DNA from: Gammaproteobacteria bacterium
GTDB taxonomy: Bacteria; Pseudomonadota; Gammaproteobacteria; Pseudomonadales; Pseudohongiellaceae
Length of the DNA: 24,801 nucleotides
Reading direction: 5' to 3'
NCBI GenBank assembly: GCA_016762995.1
Contig: JAESUT010000059.1
Coordinates: 14,891 to 39,691, forward strand
Of the stretch, positions 15,801-23,860 are shown piece by piece. The position numbers were made by a program, and so were the translations under genes. The first letter of the stretch is position 1; each line of letters starts with the position of its first letter. Under the pieces are notes generated by a model. That model saw only the letters and a program-made list of their open reading frames with translations, had not been told where the DNA came from and did not search any database.

Positions 15801-16227
15801 CGAGCAAGTATGGACAGCACAGGGCTGAGTTTGCCCTTTGTATTCGCTTGGGACTCCCAATCTCACGGTACCGCCCAGGCGTATTTATCACCTGCCTGAG
15901 CGGTCTCCAAGGTGTTGAAAAATTGGCAATTTCCCCCGCGGAGGTCATGAAGATCTAGCCATTGAACCTCTGAAGCCGCGTAAGTGTGGCCACAGAAAAC
16001 CACTCAATCGACAGATTTATTCATAATCGACGCATAAAACACTGCATTTTCAACACGGAACAGTAATTATTTTTGGTTAGATTCGGGCAAAAAACTAGGC
16101 TTGAATAGAAGCGAAACACGTACTTCTCAGATTACTAAGCCAGAAAACAGCTGAATTTGCGTTGCCGATAAAGGCTCCGAGCTGAAGCAAAACCCCTCAG
16201 AAATGCCAAACATAGCCAACTTTGGCG

Positions 16228-16243
16228 GGCCTGAAACCAGGCC
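16228..16243. repeat. Short GC-rich hairpin GGCCTG-AAAC-CAGGCC
   Basis: A 6-bp stem with a four-base loop. The same arms recur 15 bases further on with a longer loop (16257-16287). Confidence 0.6.
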
Positions 16244-16256
16244 AATGGCTAAACGC

Positions 16257-16287
16257 GGCCTGTTGATTCCCCGGGCTTCTACAGGCC
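16257..16287. repeat. Inverted repeat GGCCTGT ... ACAGGCC
   Basis: GGCCTGT (16257-16263) and ACAGGCC (16281-16287) are separated by 17 bases and followed by A-rich sequence. With the neighbouring hairpin it gives four copies of the same arm within 60 bases, so alternative pairings are possible. Confidence 0.6.
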
Positions 16288-16366
16288 AAAAAAATACAAT
16301 AAACCATTATATAACAATAACTTATAGATTCACCAAAGCCAATACCAAGCAATCATCCCCCTAGTG

Positions 16367-16815
16367 ATGGTGCACAAGCTGCGGCTAATTCAGAACATCG
16401 CATCAAACGTTAGTTTGGGCCCTGTTGGTTGGTACGAGCAGAAAAGCCTGATGGTGTGACAATGCGTCCTAACCCACTGAAGCGTGCCATTGCCACAGCG
16501 AATGGCAAGGTACCCGAACGCTTTAGTGACTGGCCTGAGGACCAACGCCTCTATGAATTTAGCGAAGAAAACTTTACACTGTGCCCTCAGGTCTGAAAAG
16601 GCGAAATGGGCCTGAATCGCTACATCGAGTAATTGTATGAATTTGCCTGTCGTGGAGGTAACCATTCCTTCTAAGGTATCGTTGCTGAAGTCCGTCACCA
16701 AGAATTAGACGGGCAGACAGCTCAAGACAATGGCAACGTAGAGCGGTAACAGAGAACGAAGTTTTGCCACAGAGCAGAAGAAGAATCGCAAAGAGGTTCC
16801 TATTCAGCAATTTGA
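16367..16815 (+). pseudogene. Possible decayed coding remnant
   Basis: Three successive plus-strand pieces read like protein in different frames. They are 16367-16459 (about 30 residues ending YEQKSLMV), 16462-16596 (MRPNPLKRAIATANGKVPER and on to CPQV) and 16606-16815 (GLNRYIE, LYEFACRGGN, EVRHQELDGQ), the last with three internal TAA codons. Spacing between pieces is 2 and 9 bases. I do not recognise the family. Overlapping minus-strand open frames (16390-16701, 16574-16810) are an alternative. Low confidence. Confidence 0.3.
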
Positions 16816-16852
16816 ACGTTAAAGAGCAATATATTTATATATCGAGGGTTAC

Positions 16853-17059
16853 ATGAGTAAAGGTACAGTTAAGTGGTTTAATGCAGACAAAGGTTTCGGT
16901 TTCATCACTCCAGCGGAAGGTGGTAACGATCTATTCGTTCACTACTCAGAAATTAAAAGTGACGGCGGTTTCGCCACGCTAAATGATGGCCAAGAAGTAG
17001 AGTACGAAGTTGGACAAGGTCAGAAAGGACCTTGTGCAAACAAAGTAGTCCCTCTCTAA
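16853..17059 (+). CDS. Cold-shock protein (CspA family), first copy
   Basis: A 68-residue single cold-shock domain that binds single-stranded nucleic acid and acts as an RNA chaperone. RNP1 KGFGFITP (residues 13-20) and RNP2 DLFVHYSEI are both intact, with [15 protein letters not shown] at the N-terminus and the usual [13 protein letters not shown] ending. The ribosome site GAGGG lies 5 bases before the ATG in an A+T-rich stretch. A TTGAAC ... TTATAT pair at about 16812-16840 could be a promoter but would leave a very short leader; a longer leader from an upstream promoter is equally possible. A strong terminator follows at 17085-17116. Paralogous to the copy at 17873. Confidence 0.95.
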
Positions 17060-17084
17060 GTATTGCCAGATAAGTTTTAGATAG

Positions 17085-17121
17085 TAGGCTGCCGACCCTT
17101 CGTGGTCGGCAGCCTAGTTTT
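17085..17121 (+). terminator. Strong rho-independent terminator of the first csp gene
   Basis: TAGGCTGCCGACC (17085-17097) pairs perfectly with GGTCGGCAGCCTA (17104-17116), a 13-bp stem with a six-base loop, followed by GTTTTC. It lies 25 bases after the csp stop. Confidence 0.9.
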
Positions 17122-17287
17122 CTACCCATACCCAAGCCCCCTATCCCCTTATTGCTCCGACAATAAGCGCATGCTGTTCTGTTGTGCCCAACACCCTGTA
17201 ATCTGAAACTAATTCCGCGCTAAACTACGATTCTGTCTGCTCAGCGCAGCAAGTCAGGTAAGCAGCGGTAAAATAGATTAATCCACT

Positions 17288-17647
17288 ATGATTAAGAAAC
17301 ACGATGCCACCGATGAATACTATTTCGAGGAAGGCTGCCACATTATCGAGACCTCTAACTCTGCCGACGACGAAGGCGTTTCGATAGCGCAAGCGAGAGT
17401 TGAGAAGGGTCACCGAACAAAGTGGCATTACTTGAAGAACACCACTGAACGCTACGTAATATTGTCAGGTTGCGCCCGGGTCGAGGTGGGGACAGAAGAG
17501 CCCTGCGATATTACCCCTGGCGACGTGGTCATAGTTCCTGCGAATACCCGCCAGCGAATCAAGAATACCGGCGAGCATGATTTACTGTTTCTAGCGATTT
17601 GCTCTCCTCGATTTCAGAAAAAAAACTACCGCGAAGGCTCAATTTAA
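17288..17647 (+). CDS. Small cupin-domain protein
   Basis: A 119-residue single-domain cupin (cupin_2 type). The first cupin motif is present as G-H-R-T-K-W-H-Y-x-x-x-x-x-E-R-Y-V-I-L-S-G, with His41 and His46 as likely metal ligands and Glu53 as the third ligand. The second motif is partial: GDVVIVPANTRQRIKNTGE has Arg in place of the usual final His, so the metal site may have only three ligands. The closest functional types are mannose-6-phosphate isomerase-like cupins, but no substrate can be inferred. No good ribosome site is seen before the ATG. It sits between two cold-shock genes without sharing a clear operon with either. Confidence 0.82.
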   Translation: MIKKHDATDEYYFEEGCHIIETSNSADDEGVSIAQARVEKGHRTKWHYLKNTTERYVILSGCARVEVGTEEPCDITPGDVVIVPANTRQRIKNTGEHDLLFLAICSPRFQKKNYREGSI

Positions 17648-17688
17648 GCCCTACTTTTGGCGCTCCAGAACAAGGCTATCTGACCGAA

Positions 17689-17722
17689 AAACCCTTGACA
17701 GGCAAGGGTTTGCCTGTAGACT
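17689..17722 (+). promoter_or_regulatory. Predicted promoter of the second csp gene overlapping two alternative hairpins
   Basis: TTGACA (17695-17700) and TAGACT (17717-17722) are 16 bases apart, a good sigma70-type pair. The same bases carry AAACCCTTG (17689-17697) with CAAGGGTTT (17703-17711), a perfect 9-bp hairpin, and CAGGCAA (17699-17705) with TTGCCTG (17710-17716), a 7-bp one. The two are mutually exclusive. Transcription would start about 150 bases before csp. Confidence 0.6.
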
Positions 17723-17728
17723 GCGCGT

Positions 17729-17872
17729 AGCTTGAAAGTAAGCATTTATTTATTCTCCCCCATTTCGAAGTCTTCCTAGTAACACCTCGTCATAAAAGTT
17801 TATAAGTACGCCGAATTTCTAGCACGACCCCTGCTTCGCAGGATTATTATATTTAAAATTTAGGTAACAAAA
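17729..17872 (+). promoter_or_regulatory. Long 5' leader of the second csp gene
   Basis: About 145 bases of untranslated leader if the promoter at 17695 is used, matching the long leaders of cspA-type mRNAs that refold with temperature. It contains CCTGC-TTC-GCAGG near 17829-17841 and ends in an A+T-rich stretch with AGGTAAC before the ATG. The thermosensor role is inference. Confidence 0.5.
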
Positions 17873-18082
17873 ATGTCAGATAAAATTACTGGTACAGTGA
17901 AATGGTTTAACGAGAACAAAGGTTTCGGCTTCATCGAACGTGAAGGCGGCCCTGACGTGTTTGCACATTTCAGTGCAATCCAAAGCTCTGGTTACAAGAC
18001 TCTTGCTGAAGGCCAACGCGTTGAATTCGTAGTAACAGATGGTCAGAAAGGACCACAGGCTGAAGAAATCGTCGCTGTTTAA
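17873..18082 (+). CDS. Cold-shock protein (CspA family), second copy
   Basis: A 69-residue cold-shock domain. RNP1 is KGFGFIER and RNP2 is DVFAHFSAI, with [15 protein letters not shown] at the N-terminus and [14 protein letters not shown] at the end. It resembles the first copy (16853) but differs at many positions, so this is an old duplication and not a recent repeat. The ribosome site AGGTAAC precedes the ATG by 6 bases. The long A+T-rich leader and the promoter at 17695 point to cold or growth-phase control at the RNA level; this copy is the better candidate of the two for cold induction. A hairpin and a terminator-like stem follow the stop. Confidence 0.95.
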
Positions 18083-18097
18083 ATCTAATACTGCCTA

Positions 18098-18116
18098 GCT
18101 AGCGCCTGTCGCTAGC
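18098..18116 (+). repeat. Hairpin GCTAGCG-CCTGT-CGCTAGC
   Basis: A perfect 7-bp stem 15 bases after the second csp stop, upstream of a more terminator-like stem. It may protect the 3' end of the mRNA. Confidence 0.65.
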
Positions 18117-18137
18117 AACGCTAACTAGATTTACTAA

Positions 18138-18177
18138 GCAAAAGGGGCAGATCCGCGAGGGCTTGTCCCTTTTTTAG
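18138..18177 (+). terminator. Rho-independent terminator of the second csp gene
   Basis: AAAAGGGGCA and TGTCCCTTTTTT form a stem of about 9-10 bp with one G-U pair around a 14-base loop, followed by a T-run. Confidence 0.75.
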
Positions 18178-18265
18178 TTTAAGTTACTCTACAGACCTAA
18201 GAAACTGCATCTGACGTAGCGCTGCTTAAGCAACAATCGGCTTTGAGAGGATAAAAGAGCGCCAA

Positions 18266-18917: not shown

Positions 18918-19319
18918 ATGAGACTATTTTTTGCCCTACCCTTTTTGCTTGTTATTTTCTCCGCTAACGCGGCCGATGTACCTCTGCCCGATCTAAGTGG
19001 CGTTACCGATAATGGCTTGAAGGTTGAGATCTATAGCGAGCTCTCGCCTCTTAGCATCAACCAAATACACAGTTGGCACGTCCGTGTACTGAATAGTGAT
19101 GACGAAGTACTAGAGCTAGAGCAACTGAGCGTATTCGGCGGCATGCCTGAGCACGATCATGGCCTGCCCACCCAACCTGAAGTGACAACACGACTCGACA
19201 ACGGCGATTATTTACTCGAGGGAGTGCGATTTCACATGCAAGGGCATTGGAAATTACAGATTGAGCTGCAATATAGCGGTGTTGTTGACACGGCCATTAT
19301 CGATTTCAACCTGCAATGA
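18918..19319 (+). CDS. Exported YtkA/FixH-like protein
   Basis: A 133-residue protein with a signal peptide (MRLFFALPFLLVIFSANAAD, cleavage about residue 19) and a small beta-sandwich domain. The sequence GGMPEHDHGLPTQPEVTTRL and the strand GDYLLEGVRFHMQGHWKLQIEL match the YtkA-like domain, in which M-P-x-H-x-H-G may bind copper or another metal (His and Met rich). FixH relatives are implicated in cbb3 oxidase maturation, but here no oxidase genes are seen. The stop overlaps the start of the next gene by four bases (ATGA), so it is translationally coupled to the di-heme peroxidase. A role in assembling or supplying that enzyme, or in metal delivery, is inference. Confidence 0.82.
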   Translation: MRLFFALPFLLVIFSANAADVPLPDLSGVTDNGLKVEIYSELSPLSINQIHSWHVRVLNSDDEVLELEQLSVFGGMPEHDHGLPTQPEVTTRLDNGDYLLEGVRFHMQGHWKLQIELQYSGVVDTAIIDFNLQ

Positions 19320-20575
19320 AGAGTCTGCTACTACCACTGCTCGCTAGTGCCACCTTAATCGCCGTAGTTGGCTGGAACTACTTGTCTATCCCTGGCGTAC
19401 CGGATTGGAGCGAGGAAGAGCTCACATTAATCGCCTCGTTATCATTGGATTCCCTTCCACCGCTGCCACTTGACCCCAGCAATCTAGTTGCGGACGACCC
19501 TGCGGCAGCGGAATTTGGTCACCGTCTCTATTTCGACACTCGCCTAAGCAGCAATGCACAGGTTGCCTGTGCGACTTGCCACAAACCTGAACTAATGTTC
19601 ACCGACGGACTAGCCCTCGCCGTCGGGGTCAGTATTGGACCGATGCACACGCCCAGCCTAGTGGGGCTCGCCTATAGCCCTTGGTTTTATTGGGACGGAA
19701 GGAAAGATAGCCAATGGGCACAGGCTCTCGCTCCCTTGGAAGCGAAGCATGAACATGCAACCGATAGAGTACAGTTACTACGCCTCATTTCTGGAGATGC
19801 CATCTATCGAGACATGTATGAGAATGTATTCGGGCCATTGAACCTGCCCGCGATGTTGCCAGAGTCTGGCATGCCAGAAGGCGACCCACAGCAACTGGCA
19901 AACTGGAATGCACTCGAGCGCGAAACACAGACAGACATATCTCAATTCTTTGCTAACCTGGGTAAGGCAATTGCTGCCTTTGAGCGCAAGATATTACCAG
20001 GCCGCACTCGCTTCGATGACTACGCCGCAGAAGTAGTTGCAGGTTCGGATAAAGACGACGCTCTAAACAATTCGGAGAAAGCTGGCCTAAAGTTATTCCT
20101 CGGAAAAGGCCAGTGCGTAACTTGCCACAATGGCCCCCTGTTCACCAATCATGAGTTTCATAACACCGGAGTGCTGGCAGTGCGCGGCCAAATGCCATCC
20201 ATGGGTCGGTACAATGGCGTACGAGTTTCTCGAGAGGATTCTTTTAATTGCCTTGGCGAGTTCAGCGACGCCTCTCCAGCAGAATGTATCGAACTGCGAT
20301 TTGCACGCGACGCTAACGATTTAGTCGGCGCACTAAAGACACCCACACTTAGAAACATCTCTCTGACAGCGCCCTATATGCACGGCGGGCAGATGGCGGA
20401 TCTTGCCGAGGTAGTGAATCACTACAACAAGGCACCAAGCTCCATGCTGAGTCACAACGAAGCAAAGCCTCTTGGTTTACGCATAGTAGAGAGACTTCAG
20501 CTGGAGGATTTTCTGCTAACGCTTAGCGCGCCCTTGGCCACAGAGCAGAAATGGCTAGTAGCCCCAGACTATTAA
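19316..20575 (+). CDS. Di-heme cytochrome c peroxidase (MauG/CcpA family)
   Basis: A 419-residue protein with an N-terminal hydrophobic anchor or signal (MKSLLLPLLASATLIAVVGW). Heme sites are CATCH at residues 85-89 (KPELMFTDG following) and CVTCH at 267-271 (NGPLFTNHEF following), spaced as in bacterial cytochrome c peroxidases. Further family motifs are GHRLYFDTRLS before the first heme, DGRKDSQWAQAL, and LKTPTLRNISLTAPYMHGGQM, in which the Met is a candidate sixth heme ligand. These enzymes reduce hydrogen peroxide in the periplasm; MauG-type relatives carry out protein modification. CcpA function is favoured by the YMHGG motif, but the two cannot be separated by eye. It is coupled to the YtkA/FixH-like gene by the 4-base overlap. 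Confidence 0.9.
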   Translation: MKSLLLPLLASATLIAVVGWNYLSIPGVPDWSEEELTLIASLSLDSLPPLPLDPSNLVADDPAAAEFGHRLYFDTRLSSNAQVACATCHKPELMFTDGLALAVGVSIGPMHTPSLVGLAYSPWFYWDGRKDSQWAQALAPLEAKHEHATDRVQLLRLISGDAIYRDMYENVFGPLNLPAMLPESGMPEGDPQQLANWNALERETQTDISQFFANLGKAIAAFERKILPGRTRFDDYAAEVVAGSDKDDALNNSEKAGLKLFLGKGQCVTCHNGPLFTNHEFHNTGVLAVRGQMPSMGRYNGVRVSREDSFNCLGEFSDASPAECIELRFARDANDLVGALKTPTLRNISLTAPYMHGGQMADLAEVVNHYNKAPSSMLSHNEAKPLGLRIVERLQLEDFLLTLSAPLATEQKWLVAPDY

Positions 20576-20628: not shown

Positions 20629-21141
20629 CTACCCCAAGTAGCCGTGTTGCGCTAGCTGGACTCGAATACCATCTGGGTCACTAAAATACAGCTGATCACC
20701 GCCACTGGTTCTGTTCGCGGCATCGCGATTAACATCGGCATCTATACCGTGATCTTGGAGTTTCTCCGCAAGGACATCGGCATTGTAGTCATCTACTCCG
20801 ATACACATATGGTGCATGCCTCCGGGGTTCGGAAGGTTATACAGCCCCAGAAAACTCTCACTGCCTAGACCCATATTCAGACCACCGTTCGCCGGGCGGG
20901 AGATAATTTCCATGCCCAGCACACGGTTGTAAAACTCGGCCGAGCGGCTCACGTCATTCACCGAGAGCGAAACATGGTTCATCGATCTGCCGATGGCAAC
21001 AGGTGCCGCCGTCTGCGCGGAAACAGCAGGCACCGCCATTGCTGTGGTAGCAACAAGTAAGGAAGCCACTAGCTCTCTGCGCGTCATCTTTTTTTGCTCA
21101 AATTTTTCAACTAGATGTTCTATTGCGTTTAGGTTGTTCAT
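20629..21141 (-). CDS. Exported VOC-family (glyoxalase/dioxygenase-fold) protein
   Basis: A 170-residue protein from the ATG at 21141, with AGGG about 8 bases upstream; the longer frame to 21165 would need a TTG start. Residues 20-42 (TRRELVASLLVATTAMAVPAVSA) form a twin-arginine-like signal, preceded by an unusual 20-residue helical lead (NLNAIEHLVEKFEQKK). The mature part is one VOC module: MNHVSLSVNDVSRSAEFYNRVLGMEI, then GGMHHMCIGVDDYNADVLAEKLQDHG and DQLYFSDPDGIRVQLAQHGYLG. His56, His110 or His111, and Gln162 in place of the usual Glu are candidate metal ligands. Substrate is unknown. Same strand as, and about 100 bases downstream of, the PQQ dehydrogenase. Confidence 0.85.
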   Translation of the reverse strand: MNNLNAIEHLVEKFEQKKMTRRELVASLLVATTAMAVPAVSAQTAAPVAIGRSMNHVSLSVNDVSRSAEFYNRVLGMEIISRPANGGLNMGLGSESFLGLYNLPNPGGMHHMCIGVDDYNADVLAEKLQDHGIDADVNRDAANRTSGGDQLYFSDPDGIRVQLAQHGYLG

Positions 21142-21168
21142 CTTCTCTGCCCTGATTTTGTACAAAAA

Positions 21169-21244: not shown

Positions 21245-22954
21245 CTAGTCAGGTAGCGCAAACACCCAAATAACACCACCCTGCGGCACATAGTGACTCT
21301 CCCCCTTCACTATATTGAGCAAATTCTGCTCACGCTGTGCATCAACCCCCCAACCGGACTGGACGGCAATATATTGTTTGCCGTCTAAAGTATAGGTAAC
21401 CGGCACCCCGGTGATGCCGGAGTTTGTGCGTTGCTTCCAGAGAATCTCACCGGTTCTAGAGTCGAATGCACGAAAGTAGCGGTCATTTGTGCCACCCATA
21501 AAAACAAGATCGCCAGCGGTAGCCAACACCGGGCCCCAGTTCTGACTTTCGAATGTTGTTGTCCACACCCGCTCACCGGTATCTACGTTCCAGGCTTGCA
21601 GTTCACCGATGTGATCGGTGCCAGGTCGCACAAAAAAACCACCATTTTCGGACGTGCCGCGCCCCATGTAAGACCGACCGGGACTGTATTGAACCTCTTC
21701 TCCAACCATGGTCGAGCAAACATTGTCATTCGCCGGAATGAACATCAATCGTGACTTTGGGTCGAAAGCGGCGGGAGGCCAATCCTTGCCACCCCAAAGT
21801 GATGGACAGAAACTCGCCTCATAGCCGGTGCCCGGCTTCTTAGACATATCGTATTCGGGCCGCCCGGTAACTGGGTCGATGCTGGTAAAAACGTCTTGAT
21901 AGACATAGGGGTTCGCGTCGACGAAGTTAATCGCATCTGCCTCACGCTCGAGGTACCAGAGATAACCATTACGACCCGCATGGACCATACCGTTTATGCT
22001 ACGGCCATCGCGTTCGAAGTCGATTAGCAGTGGCGCGGAGACTTCATCCCAGTCCCACGAGTCATTCCAATGGTATTGATGGTGATTCTTGAGCTCGCCC
22101 GTCGTTACGTCCAAGGCGATAACAGAAGAAGAATAGAGGTTGTCACCCGGCCGGGTATCGCCCATCCAGGGGCCACCGTTGCCAGTACCCCAGTAGGCAA
22201 GATTCAATTCAGGATCGAAGGAACCCGTTAGCCACACCGGCACGCCACCGGTCTTCCAGGTATCTCCCGGCCATGACTCTGAGCCTGGCTCACCAGGAGC
22301 TGGAATAGTGTACGTCTTCCATTGTTCTTCGCCAGTTAGTACATCGTAGGCAGCAATGAAACCACGGATGCCAAGCTCTCCACCGGAGACACCCACCATA
22401 ACTTTGCCATCGGCTATGAGCGGGGCCATCGTCATATAATAGCCGTTATAGTAATCCTCAACGGCAACCTCCCAAATCAACTCGCCGGTCAATGCATCAA
22501 GCGAAACGAGGAAGGCATCTACCGTTGCCATGTAAACACGATCGCCATACAAGGCCACGCCACGGTTCGTTGGATGGAACTGCTGCAGATCATCTGGCAG
22601 GTAGCGCACATAGCGCCAGATCAGATCGCCCGTACGCGCATTGATAGCGAGAATATGATTCTGTGGCGTGGTCACGTACATGTAACCGTCGTTCACGATA
22701 GGTGGCGCCTGGTGTCCTTCTCTTAACCCGGTCGAGAAACTCCATACCGGCACAAGGCCATCGACATTGTCGGTGTTAATTTGGTCGAGGCTGCTAAAAC
22801 CATGGGAATCATAACTGCCACGGTACATCAGCCAGTTACTCTCCTCTGGGTTGAGAAGGCGCTCTGCGGTAACAGGATTGTAAGGTGGCAGATCCTGTGC
22901 AAATAGGAGACTGGAGACTAACGAACAACACAGAAAAATACTGGAGCGAATCAT
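21245..22954 (-). CDS. PQQ-dependent dehydrogenase (quinoprotein, probable lanthanide type)
   Basis: A 569-residue periplasmic eight-bladed quinoprotein of the methanol/ethanol dehydrogenase superfamily, using ATG 22954 (AGAGG ribosome site; the frame to 22996 needs a TTG and would bury the signal). Signal peptide residues 1-19. Repeated tryptophan-docking motifs include NARTGDLIW, DALTGELIW, DVLTGEEQW, DVDTGERVW and DSRTGEILW. Metal and active-site residues are Glu193 (SGGELG), Asn259 (WGTGN), catalytic Asp301 and Asp303 (SWDWDE). The extra Asp two residues after the catalytic one is the mark of lanthanide-type enzymes such as XoxF, ExaF and PedH. The vicinal Cys-Cys of methanol dehydrogenases is absent: the corresponding stretch is LQQFHPTNRGVALYGD. 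No C-terminal cytochrome domain is present. Substrate unknown. A Rieske gene lies directly upstream. Confidence 0.93.
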   Translation of the reverse strand: MIRSSIFLCCSLVSSLLFAQDLPPYNPVTAERLLNPEESNWLMYRGSYDSHGFSSLDQINTDNVDGLVPVWSFSTGLREGHQAPPIVNDGYMYVTTPQNHILAINARTGDLIWRYVRYLPDDLQQFHPTNRGVALYGDRVYMATVDAFLVSLDALTGELIWEVAVEDYYNGYYMTMAPLIADGKVMVGVSGGELGIRGFIAAYDVLTGEEQWKTYTIPAPGEPGSESWPGDTWKTGGVPVWLTGSFDPELNLAYWGTGNGGPWMGDTRPGDNLYSSSVIALDVTTGELKNHHQYHWNDSWDWDEVSAPLLIDFERDGRSINGMVHAGRNGYLWYLEREADAINFVDANPYVYQDVFTSIDPVTGRPEYDMSKKPGTGYEASFCPSLWGGKDWPPAAFDPKSRLMFIPANDNVCSTMVGEEVQYSPGRSYMGRGTSENGGFFVRPGTDHIGELQAWNVDTGERVWTTTFESQNWGPVLATAGDLVFMGGTNDRYFRAFDSRTGEILWKQRTNSGITGVPVTYTLDGKQYIAVQSGWGVDAQREQNLLNIVKGESHYVPQGGVIWVFALPD

Positions 22955-23020
22955 TTTTCTTGAACCTCTGACTGTTGATTGCAATTTAACATGCAAGAAT
23001 TGGCATCAAACTATTGCGAC

Positions 23021-23653
23021 TTAAAATTGCTGCGTAAATCCAACCCGACCTCGAAAGCCAGCAGCAACCATTACGATGCCATCAGCCACTTCAAGTGGCA
23101 ACATGGCAAGTGGCCTGGGCGCTGGACCGCCTACCACTTTGGCACCGTCGTAAATATCGAATTGCGATTCGTGACAGGGACAGGCCATGCGTAACCGGCC
23201 TGCATCCCAGTTAATCACGTCGCAGCCGGTGTGCGTGCACACGGCAGAGTAAGCGATTACGCCTTCAGCCGCATTCGCCTGATAGCGCGCACTCATCAAT
23301 TCAGGGTCGATACGCATGATCATCACGCGGTTCAGCCTAGAGCCGTCACGCAGCACCTCGGTCTCTGGATCGCGAGCGAGAGCCGACAAGGGCCTGGCTT
23401 CCAATTCGAGCAGTTCTGGCCGTACCAAAGCATCCTGATTGGGGCCCTCCTCAAATACCAGCTGGTCCCCCGGCTGTGGCCTAAGGCGATTGGGTGACTG
23501 GCCTAAGGCTGACATGGGTACAGCGATCCCAGTCGCTAAACCCATTTTAAATACGGTGCGCCGACTAATCGGTTTAGCTACTCGATTTTCTCTTTTGCAG
23601 CTCTTGTTGTCACTCTTACTATCGCTATTGCCGATGTCGGTATTTTTGCTCAT
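23021..23653 (-). CDS. TAT-exported Rieske [2Fe-2S] protein
   Basis: A 210-residue protein from the ATG at 23653 (AGGA 8 bases upstream). A polar N-terminus of about 28 residues is followed by a twin-arginine signal, ISRRTVFKMGLATGIAVPMSA (residues 29-49), so a folded cofactor-bearing protein is exported; an uncleaved signal would anchor it in the inner membrane. The Rieske site is complete: CTHTGC (Cys139, His141, Cys144) and CPCHESQFD (Cys158, Cys160, His161), with GGPAPRPL after it. Cys144 and Cys160 would form the stabilising disulfide. Unlike bc1 Rieske subunits it has no petB or petC neighbour here. It lies 66 bases upstream of the PQQ dehydrogenase on the same strand, so the two are probably one transcript and may exchange electrons. 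Confidence 0.9.
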   Translation of the reverse strand: MSKNTDIGNSDSKSDNKSCKRENRVAKPISRRTVFKMGLATGIAVPMSALGQSPNRLRPQPGDQLVFEEGPNQDALVRPELLELEARPLSALARDPETEVLRDGSRLNRVMIMRIDPELMSARYQANAAEGVIAYSAVCTHTGCDVINWDAGRLRMACPCHESQFDIYDGAKVVGGPAPRPLAMLPLEVADGIVMVAAGFRGRVGFTQQF

Positions 23654-23860
23654 GCCGTATCCTGAATCCTGAGACTGTTCTAAGGAATAGCCTATCTTAA
23701 CCATAGAAGGTATCAAAGAGCCGGAACCGCTGCAATCATGCCGCTTCGCTGGCAAATTGCTTAGCCTCAAGCCGAATGTTATGTTGTTGATTATGCTGGG
23801 ACAAAACAGCCAACAGGGCATAACCCAAACAGAAGCACCGATGACAGAAGAGAAACAACC

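Follow-up and report, generated by a model that had tools for sequence, protein, structure and literature searches.

A lanthanide-type PQQ dehydrogenase of probable type 6a, conserved beside a Rieske protein that may be its electron acceptor

The window analyzed here, a stretch of 24,801 nucleotides from contig JAESUT010000059.1 of a gammaproteobacterium of the family Pseudohongiellaceae (assembly GCA_016762995.1), encodes a pyrroloquinoline quinone (PQQ)-dependent dehydrogenase of the methanol/ethanol family, preceded by a gene for a Rieske [2Fe-2S] protein (Table 1). We propose that this dehydrogenase, which is best read as a PQQ alcohol dehydrogenase (PQQ-ADH) of type 6a, probably oxidizes an alcohol with the help of a lanthanide and delivers the electrons to the adjoining Rieske protein in place of a cytochrome. 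The direct basis of this proposal consists of the sequence itself, the alignment of the active site, the conserved pairing of the two genes, the separation of the enzyme from its cytochrome-linked relatives, the reversal of gene order in some pairs, and a nested subclade with a different metal signature; from these observations we infer the metal, the substrate, the export route, the direct electron transfer and the onward acceptor.

The dehydrogenase and its metal site

The plus-strand reading of positions 21245–22954 is interrupted by stop codons, and the coding strand is the minus strand. A TTG codon located 14 codons 5' of the ATG is an alternative start that would yield a protein of 583 amino acids, in which the site residues discussed below are numbered E207, N273, D315 and D317. 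The protein belongs to family TIGR03075 (570.2 bits against a curated cut-off of 480.05) and matches PF01011 with 276 bits; in a protein database search, 7884 of the 8000 scored candidates matched it at E 1e-60. An AlphaFold2 model, built from a 36-sequence alignment, has a predicted local distance difference test (pLDDT) score of 83 and a predicted template modelling (pTM) score of 0.87, and places an N-terminal helix, which resembles a Sec signal, at residues 2–17. The nearest solved fold is that of PedH (6zcv), with a template modelling (TM) score of 0.88 and 36% identity.

A sequence-only reading of this DNA had noted that Glu193, Asn259, Asp301 and Asp303 are all present and had placed Asp303 at the position of the additional aspartate of lanthanide enzymes (the D-x-D motif); both statements withstood comparison with solved structures. 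In phmmer alignments, the W-D-W-D segment of the dehydrogenase pairs with W-D-F-D of PedH, W-D-Y-D of two XoxF proteins and W-D-Y-A of MxaF, so that Asp303 sits on the lanthanide-ligand column, and the protein carries the full signature of lanthanide PQQ alcohol dehydrogenases, namely the second Asp together with Glu and Asn. Related loci were defined as the best 80 of 234 matches in genome contigs; the five site columns read E, N, D, W and D in all 80, and the four site residues are therefore not a product of chance. The same reading had reported that the adjacent-cysteine disulfide of methanol dehydrogenases (MDH) is missing, which proved correct and turned out to be a family trait: the vicinal Cys-Cys columns of PedH, both XoxF proteins and MxaF are occupied by Gln-Phe, followed directly by His-Pro-Thr-Asn-Arg-Gly, and none of the 80 related loci has Cys at either column. 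In this respect the dehydrogenase lacks a trait of the solved lanthanide members to which it was aligned. Since all four ligands align with those of PedH and XoxF, lanthanide use by the enzyme is plausible.

D-x-D by itself is neither rare nor new. It occurs in 61% of 6,328 ocean PQQ dehydrogenases (PMC11996626). The 3.05-Mb genome that carries the window has 25 other PQQ-domain open reading frames (ORFs), fragments included, in which the second-Asp column holds D in 20, G in 1 and a gap in 4, versus a Glu ligand in 5 and an Asn ligand in 7; given these counts, the motif alone says little outside the methanol/ethanol group, and it was rejected as a sufficient mark of lanthanide use because distant paralogues without Glu and Asn carry it too. 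Those paralogues lend some weight to the possibility that D-x-D does not denote a lanthanide here and that the enzyme works with calcium or with either metal, as is seemingly the case for membrane glucose dehydrogenase (mGDH): the characterized mGDH P15877 has D-x-D although its class uses Ca, Mg, Zn or Sr (PMC11996626), and a xoxF-type enzyme purified with Ca is cited in PMC8561711. What speaks against calcium is that the match to PedH and XoxF extends beyond D-x-D to all four ligands, and that a subclade with D-x-A, comprising two Paracoccus, Alteromonas and three other genomes, nests with a support of 100 inside the Rieske-linked branch described below. This nesting suggests that selection acts on the second Asp as a switch between metals; on sequence grounds, the subclade would represent a switch parallel to that between XoxF and MxaF, and its D-x-A members are predicted to use calcium. 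The Rieske-linked dehydrogenases with the calcium-type W-D-W-A segment are L159, L160, L169, L170, L171, L172, L173 and L185. We consider it unlikely, if worth keeping in view, that D-x-D does not denote a lanthanide in the window enzyme.

The Rieske protein and the conservation of the gene pair

The longest ORF of the Rieske gene starts at 23821, and the starts of homologues fall near its M57. With two Cys and two His ligands and a Rieske fold, the product is a genuine Rieske protein: the best match of its AlphaFold2 model (pLDDT 87) is 1nyk, a bc-type Rieske protein from Thermus, at 40% identity and a TM score of 0.94 by target; 1nyk also scores 170 bits in a profile search, while AioB of arsenite oxidase stands lower in the structure-search list. 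The cluster-binding Cys and His residues and the twin arginine are invariant among 36 aligned Rieske partners. In a wider set of 95 Rieske-linked pairs (76 from the related loci and 19 others), the motif CxHxxC...CxCH is present in all 95 and RR occurs within the first 90 residues in 94; export by the twin-arginine translocation (Tat) system is probable. The host genome encodes three PF00355 proteins.

In 76 of the 80 related loci, a Rieske gene with the full motif lies upstream of the dehydrogenase on the same strand, separated from it by less than 300 bp without large overlap in 66 pairs and by 948 bp in L083; the other nine pairs show overlaps that arise from over-long dehydrogenase ORFs. 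By their titles, the related loci span Pseudomonadota, Acidobacteriota, Rokuibacteriota, Binatota and one bin assigned to Myxococcota. When the neighbours of the 80 loci were clustered under a stricter rule, the Rieske cluster comprised 54 loci, and gammaproteobacterial and other loci mixed in three of the 14 largest clusters: the Rieske cluster, the dehydrogenase cluster and a set of ORFs, headed by L052_5191_5940, that runs antisense over the Rieske gene.

A survey of 99 genomes of the host family (dehydrogenase model A1 at E <=1e-150, Rieske model A2 at E <=1e-15) found the dehydrogenase in 54, the Rieske protein in 41 and both in 40 (Fisher p = 1.8e-14, ignoring relatedness). Forty of the 41 Rieske genes lie 30–222 bp upstream of a dehydrogenase gene, and the remaining one reaches the end of its contig. 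The 14 genomes with the dehydrogenase only consist of G172, in which the locus is cut at a contig end, and 13 members of a clade with the loop HRTNRG that have no Rieske gene. Across the order, 145 genomes yielded the Rieske protein in 2 and the dehydrogenase in 3, all of the host's own genus. The reverse approach, in which the Rieske model alone was searched against 398 Pseudomonadota genomes with up to eight candidates scored per genome, returned 12 matches at E 1e-25 including the host genome, and 11 of the 11 others, which come from outside the host's family, adjoin a dehydrogenase of the family studied here.

Plasmids provide a further view of the association. Thirty-five plasmid records match the dehydrogenase at E 1e-100, of which 18 were inspected; one of the other 17 exceeds 45% identity. 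All eight inspected relatives with at least 45% identity (from Roseomonas, Methylobacterium aquaticum 22A, Azoarcus KH32C, Paracoccus alcaliphilus, P. yeei, Paracoccus Arc7-R13, Alteromonas macleodii and Deinococcus aetherius) have a Rieske gene, downstream of the dehydrogenase in four (the three Paracoccus and Alteromonas). By comparison, none of the ten relatives below 42% identity has one; all ten possess Cys-Cys, nine have a nearby same-strand ORF with a CxxCH motif, and the tenth has a gene annotated as pedF at the margin of the inspected region. Genome annotation pipelines already list both gene names side by side in the annotated plasmid pairs. Over the 95 Rieske-linked enzymes, the four site residues read ENDD in 88 and ENDA in 7, and Cys-Cys is absent from 94 and present in 1.

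The host's own paralogues differ in their partners. Within the flanks examined, which are short at contig ends, none of the 25 has a Rieske neighbour. The four best-scoring paralogues (L014, L013, L011 and L016) and the fragment L024 adjoin a gene for a cytochrome c of about 270 amino acids with two CxxCH motifs, located upstream in four of the five; L022 has a gene for a one-haem cytochrome, and L018 and L019 contain CxxCH in their own sequences. The Rieske-dehydrogenase pair lacks such a dedicated cytochrome c gene: over the surrounding 5.7 kb, the sole ORF with CxxCH is an opposite-strand gene for a MauG-like di-haem protein. MxaF, XoxF and ExaF hand their electrons to a dedicated c-type cytochrome (PMC8546591, PMC11845868), and for MxaF and XoxF the disulfide ring over PQQ has been tied to the transfer (PMC8546591, citing Mennenga 2009). 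It is because both the cytochrome gene and the disulfide ring are missing, and a Rieske gene stands in the cytochrome's place, that we regard the Rieske protein as the likely electron acceptor.

A different interpretation holds that the dehydrogenase is an ordinary lanthanide enzyme donating to a general c-type cytochrome, while the co-transcribed Rieske protein acts elsewhere, for instance as an alternative subunit of a bc-type complex. The closest solved relatives of the Rieske protein, Thermus 1nyk foremost, are indeed bc-complex proteins, and some relatives of the dehydrogenase have no adjacent Rieske gene. At odds with this interpretation, the Rieske protein stays under the cut-off of each of the nine NCBIfam models listed for it, including the curated bc1, b6f and arsenite-oxidase models (NF050121, the best, at 96.4 against 275; TIGR01416 at 38.1 against 97.4; TIGR02694 at 36.2 against 95.65), and these models remain below cut-off for all five partners tested, the window protein included. 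The annotations around the seven annotated plasmid pairs show no cytochrome b gene, the Rieske gene occurs without the dehydrogenase once in 99 family genomes, at the contig end mentioned above, and the pairing is maintained whichever gene comes first, on plasmids and in different phyla. A role of the Rieske protein elsewhere thus seems to us quite improbable.

Phylogeny and the weighing of the proposal

A tree of 51 selected rows, computed by a quick method with cultured and cytochrome-linked relatives added, supports the separate branch that had been anticipated from the sequence. The dehydrogenase falls in a clade of 34 rows (29 Rieske-linked and 5 Rieske-less) with a Shimodaira-Hasegawa-like approximate likelihood ratio test (SH-aLRT) support of 99, apart from XoxF, MxaF and PedH. 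XoxF and MxaF form a branch of their own (SH-aLRT 100) to which the dehydrogenase does not belong, all 15 cytochrome-linked rows lie outside the clade (90), and the Deinococcus protein is placed at their base (94). The HRT rows, which have no Rieske gene, fall inside the 34-row clade (97), which would mean that the Rieske partner was lost there. In an earlier 69-row tree the HRT clade is instead sister to the rest (91), with long branches meeting, and because its placement differs between the two trees the order of Rieske gain and loss is not fixed.

Several observations weigh against the proposal. Thirteen relatives from the host's own genus (L113 and L117–L128), with the loop HRTNRG, have a Rieske gene neither in the locus nor in the genome, from which it follows that the fold does not strictly need the Rieske protein; none of the 13 has a clear cytochrome c partner, L117 having an upstream ORF with one CxxCH. 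Of the four related loci without an adjacent Rieske gene, L085 shows none in the 570 bp of upstream sequence covered, a length sufficient to reveal the greater part of a normally spaced gene, as about 530 bp does in L087. In L074 and L075 the Rieske gene is found at another place in the genome (227 and 244 bits), and the genome of L092 has just a 49-bit Rieske match. The co-occurrence counts are phylogenetically non-independent. No genuine fusion of the two proteins was found, a joined probe with the Rieske part scored yielding one match in 4107 candidates; this match, P0122, was rejected as a natural fusion, being a frame-shifted metagenome-contig read-through of two adjacent genes. Of five partners tested, only that of Deinococcus exceeds the cut-off of the Tat model TIGR01409, which is not listed for the window protein or the three others. 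In the structure model of the dehydrogenase, residues 297–299 and 301–303 have a pLDDT <50, and the geometry of the metal site was set aside for this low confidence of the active-site loop. Finally, the paralogue L011 has a cytochrome despite lacking Cys-Cys, and the Deinococcus pair combines Cys-Cys with a Rieske gene; disulfide and partner are accordingly not tightly coupled, and the missing disulfide is weakened as a cause or mark of the Rieske partner.

The sequence of the loop was also considered as a marker. The distinction between HPT and HRT as a sign of the Rieske partner held within the host's family and was broken by L171, which has HRT together with a Rieske gene, and by L074, L075 and L092, in which HPT occurs but no Rieske gene adjoins. 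As a separate observation, six of the 13 HRT relatives adjoin a MauG-like di-haem gene on the other strand, and several have an ORF that looks PQQ-like by eye.

That the Rieske gene is a relic of an operon kept by shared descent, or encodes a protein that serves in maturation or protection and exchanges no electrons with the enzyme, is very improbable: most counts do come from related lineages, and the Rieske gene was seemingly lost with retention of the dehydrogenase in the HRT clade (whether nested as in the 51-row tree or sister as in the 69-row tree) and in L092, but the linkage is retained in five D-x-A loci with reversed gene order (three Paracoccus, Alteromonas and L169), the gene occupies the slot in which the host's paralogues keep their cytochromes, the Deinococcus pair lies outside the main branch, and the cluster motif is intact in every one of the 95 pairs.

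Proposed mechanism and its meaning

In the scheme that we favour, electron transfer to the Rieske protein, a periplasmic PQQ dehydrogenase would oxidize an alcohol, probably not methanol, by means of PQQ and a metal bound by the Glu/Asn/Asp/Asp set, a lanthanide being the predicted metal. The electrons of reduced PQQ (PQQH2) would leave singly to the Rieske [2Fe-2S] protein encoded upstream rather than to a cytochrome of the XoxG, MxaG or PedF type. The Rieske protein, probably exported by Tat, would relay them to the cytochrome c pool or to a terminal oxidase, much like the arsenite-oxidase subunit AioB. In this branch, the cytochrome gene and the vicinal disulfide over PQQ would have been lost together.

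An alcohol as the substrate is suggested by the enzyme family and by genes in the clusters of relatives, namely aldehyde dehydrogenase genes in Azoarcus and Paracoccus and a molybdopterin-type oxidoreductase gene in Roseomonas; a primary alcohol would fit. Neither type of gene was seen beside the pair in the window.

If the proposal is correct, the Rieske acceptor represents a second solution to electron exit from PQQ alcohol dehydrogenases, one that differs in potential and probably also in export route (Tat, with a pre-folded cluster), and it would help to account for the ability of this branch to do without the disulfide over PQQ. We lean, somewhat less firmly than in the case of the window enzyme, toward the broader view that type 6a enzymes in general use a dedicated Rieske acceptor, that metal and partner vary independently so that all four combinations exist, and that, in marine Pseudomonadales with dozens of PQQ enzymes, one lanthanide enzyme passes its electrons through a Rieske protein. 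As type 6a is among the types that dominate PQQ dehydrogenase transcripts in the deep-water regime (PMC11996626), what is at stake is the missing partner of an abundant enzyme.

Other features of the window and of the host group

Table 1. Position of the gene pair, its functional residues and neighbouring genes within the window
Feature	Position	Strand	Basis or remark
PQQ-dependent dehydrogenase, methanol/ethanol family (TIGR03075)	21245..22954	-	ATG start, 569 amino acids, hydrophobic N-terminal helix
Glu193 codon, predicted metal ligand	22376..22378	-	Alignment to PedH/XoxF/MxaF; position counted from ATG
Asn259 codon, predicted metal ligand	22178..22180	-	Alignment to PedH/XoxF/MxaF
Asp301-Trp302-Asp303 codons, catalytic Asp and lanthanide-type second Asp (D-x-D)	22046..22054	-	Alignment to PedH/XoxF/MxaF
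Codons 125-129, Gln-Phe-His-Pro-Thr; Gln-Phe at the vicinal Cys-Cys position of methanol and ethanol dehydrogenases	22568..22582	-	Alignment
Gap between Rieske gene and dehydrogenase ATG, 66 bp, genes co-directional	22955..23020	-	Coordinates
Rieske [2Fe-2S] protein, twin-arginine N-terminus, 210 amino acids	23021..23653	-	PF00355, motif, fold
Rieske codons 139-161, cluster-binding motif CTHTGC-x13-CPCH	23171..23239	-	Invariant cluster Cys/His
Rieske twin-arginine codons, probable Tat signal	23558..23563	-	Invariant in 36/36 partners
VOC/glyoxalase-fold protein, Tat-like N-terminus, downstream of dehydrogenase	20629..21165	-	PF00903
MauG-like di-haem protein	19316..20575	+	PF03150
YtkA-like protein	18918..19319	+	PF13115; near the dehydrogenase in close relatives

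The VOC gene recurs in 15 of the 80 related loci, all gammaproteobacterial by title, and the MauG-like gene in 25; the latter is lineage-specific and is present both with and without the Rieske gene. Being confined to close relatives, the two were rejected as functional partners of the pair. Elsewhere in the window, positions 15801–18265 form a tract of about 2.4 kb with two ORFs of at least 80 amino acids (the longer of 119) in otherwise dense surroundings; an Rfam search of the window, this tract included, gave no match.

The supply of PQQ was considered at the level of genomes. No pqqE scored above cut-off in the host genome, despite its many PQQ-domain ORFs; pqqE is present in 12 of 39 family genomes and in one of eight from the host's own genus, seven of those eight being 99–100% complete. 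The pqqC gene was not found either, in a control search that matched in none of the genomes. Bacteria of the host group may obtain their PQQ by import. Unusually large numbers of PQQ dehydrogenases, up to 70 per genome, have been described in fifteen genomes of Pseudomonadales UBA9145 and in three Acidobacteria (PMC11996626).

One related locus, L096 (CAMDML010000001.1), is titled Klebsiella pneumoniae; its species label is probably wrong, since L132 (G159), a member of the window's own GTDB family, has an identical dehydrogenase.

Relation to known systems

The assignment to type 6a of the Keltjens classification follows, indirectly, from the tree. The window enzyme shares its clade with L157, a gene on plasmid 1p of M. 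aquaticum 22A. This plasmid has two family matches at E 1e-100, L157 and L185 (the latter outside the tree), one with D-x-D (at 449 kb) and one with D-x-A (at about 144 kb); a Rieske gene directly precedes each of them. M. aquaticum 22A has six MDH-like genes, of which adh4 and adh6, both with 1p tags, are PQQ-ADH type 6a (PMC7356819). From the plasmid and the gene number, the two 1p loci would be adh4 and adh6, the Keltjens reference sequences lying outside the alignment; it is this fit with the two published type 6a genes, together with the shared clade, that makes type 6a the best reading of the window enzyme. In 2020 the type was called not characterized; strains with adh4 or adh6 deleted, or with a single gene remaining, were made, and section 3.2 of that paper names no growth on methanol or ethanol via adh4 or adh6 (PMC7356819). 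Cys-Cys has been reported missing in some minor members of groups 7 (type 6a), 8 and 9 (PMC8561711).

The link between Rieske proteins and PQQ dehydrogenases is likely new to the literature. No title or abstract opening that joins the two was found in an incomplete search that left Keltjens 2014 and Huang 2019 uncovered, and the word "Rieske" occurs 0 times in the main text of PMC11996626, PMC7356819, PMC8561711, PMC6028718 and the 2024 review PMC11845868.

Three known systems are most instructive for comparison. XoxF and MxaF have the fold and the PQQ site in common with the window enzyme, and XoxF the D-x-D motif as well, but they possess Cys-Cys and a dedicated c-type cytochrome (PMC8546591). 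PedH/ExaF (type 2b) is closer, PedH being the nearest solved sequence and fold with the same Glu/Asn/Asp/Asp set; however, PedH retains Cys-Cys, six plasmid relatives of this kind lie near an annotated pedF cytochrome gene, and its branch is separate from that of the window enzyme. AioB of arsenite oxidase shares the Rieske fold with the window protein, whose sequence is nonetheless closer to the Thermus bc-type protein. AioB receives electrons from a periplasmic molybdenum enzyme and passes them on to cytochrome c, and a structure recovered in the Rieske fold search, 8ed4, is titled as a complex with cytochrome c552.

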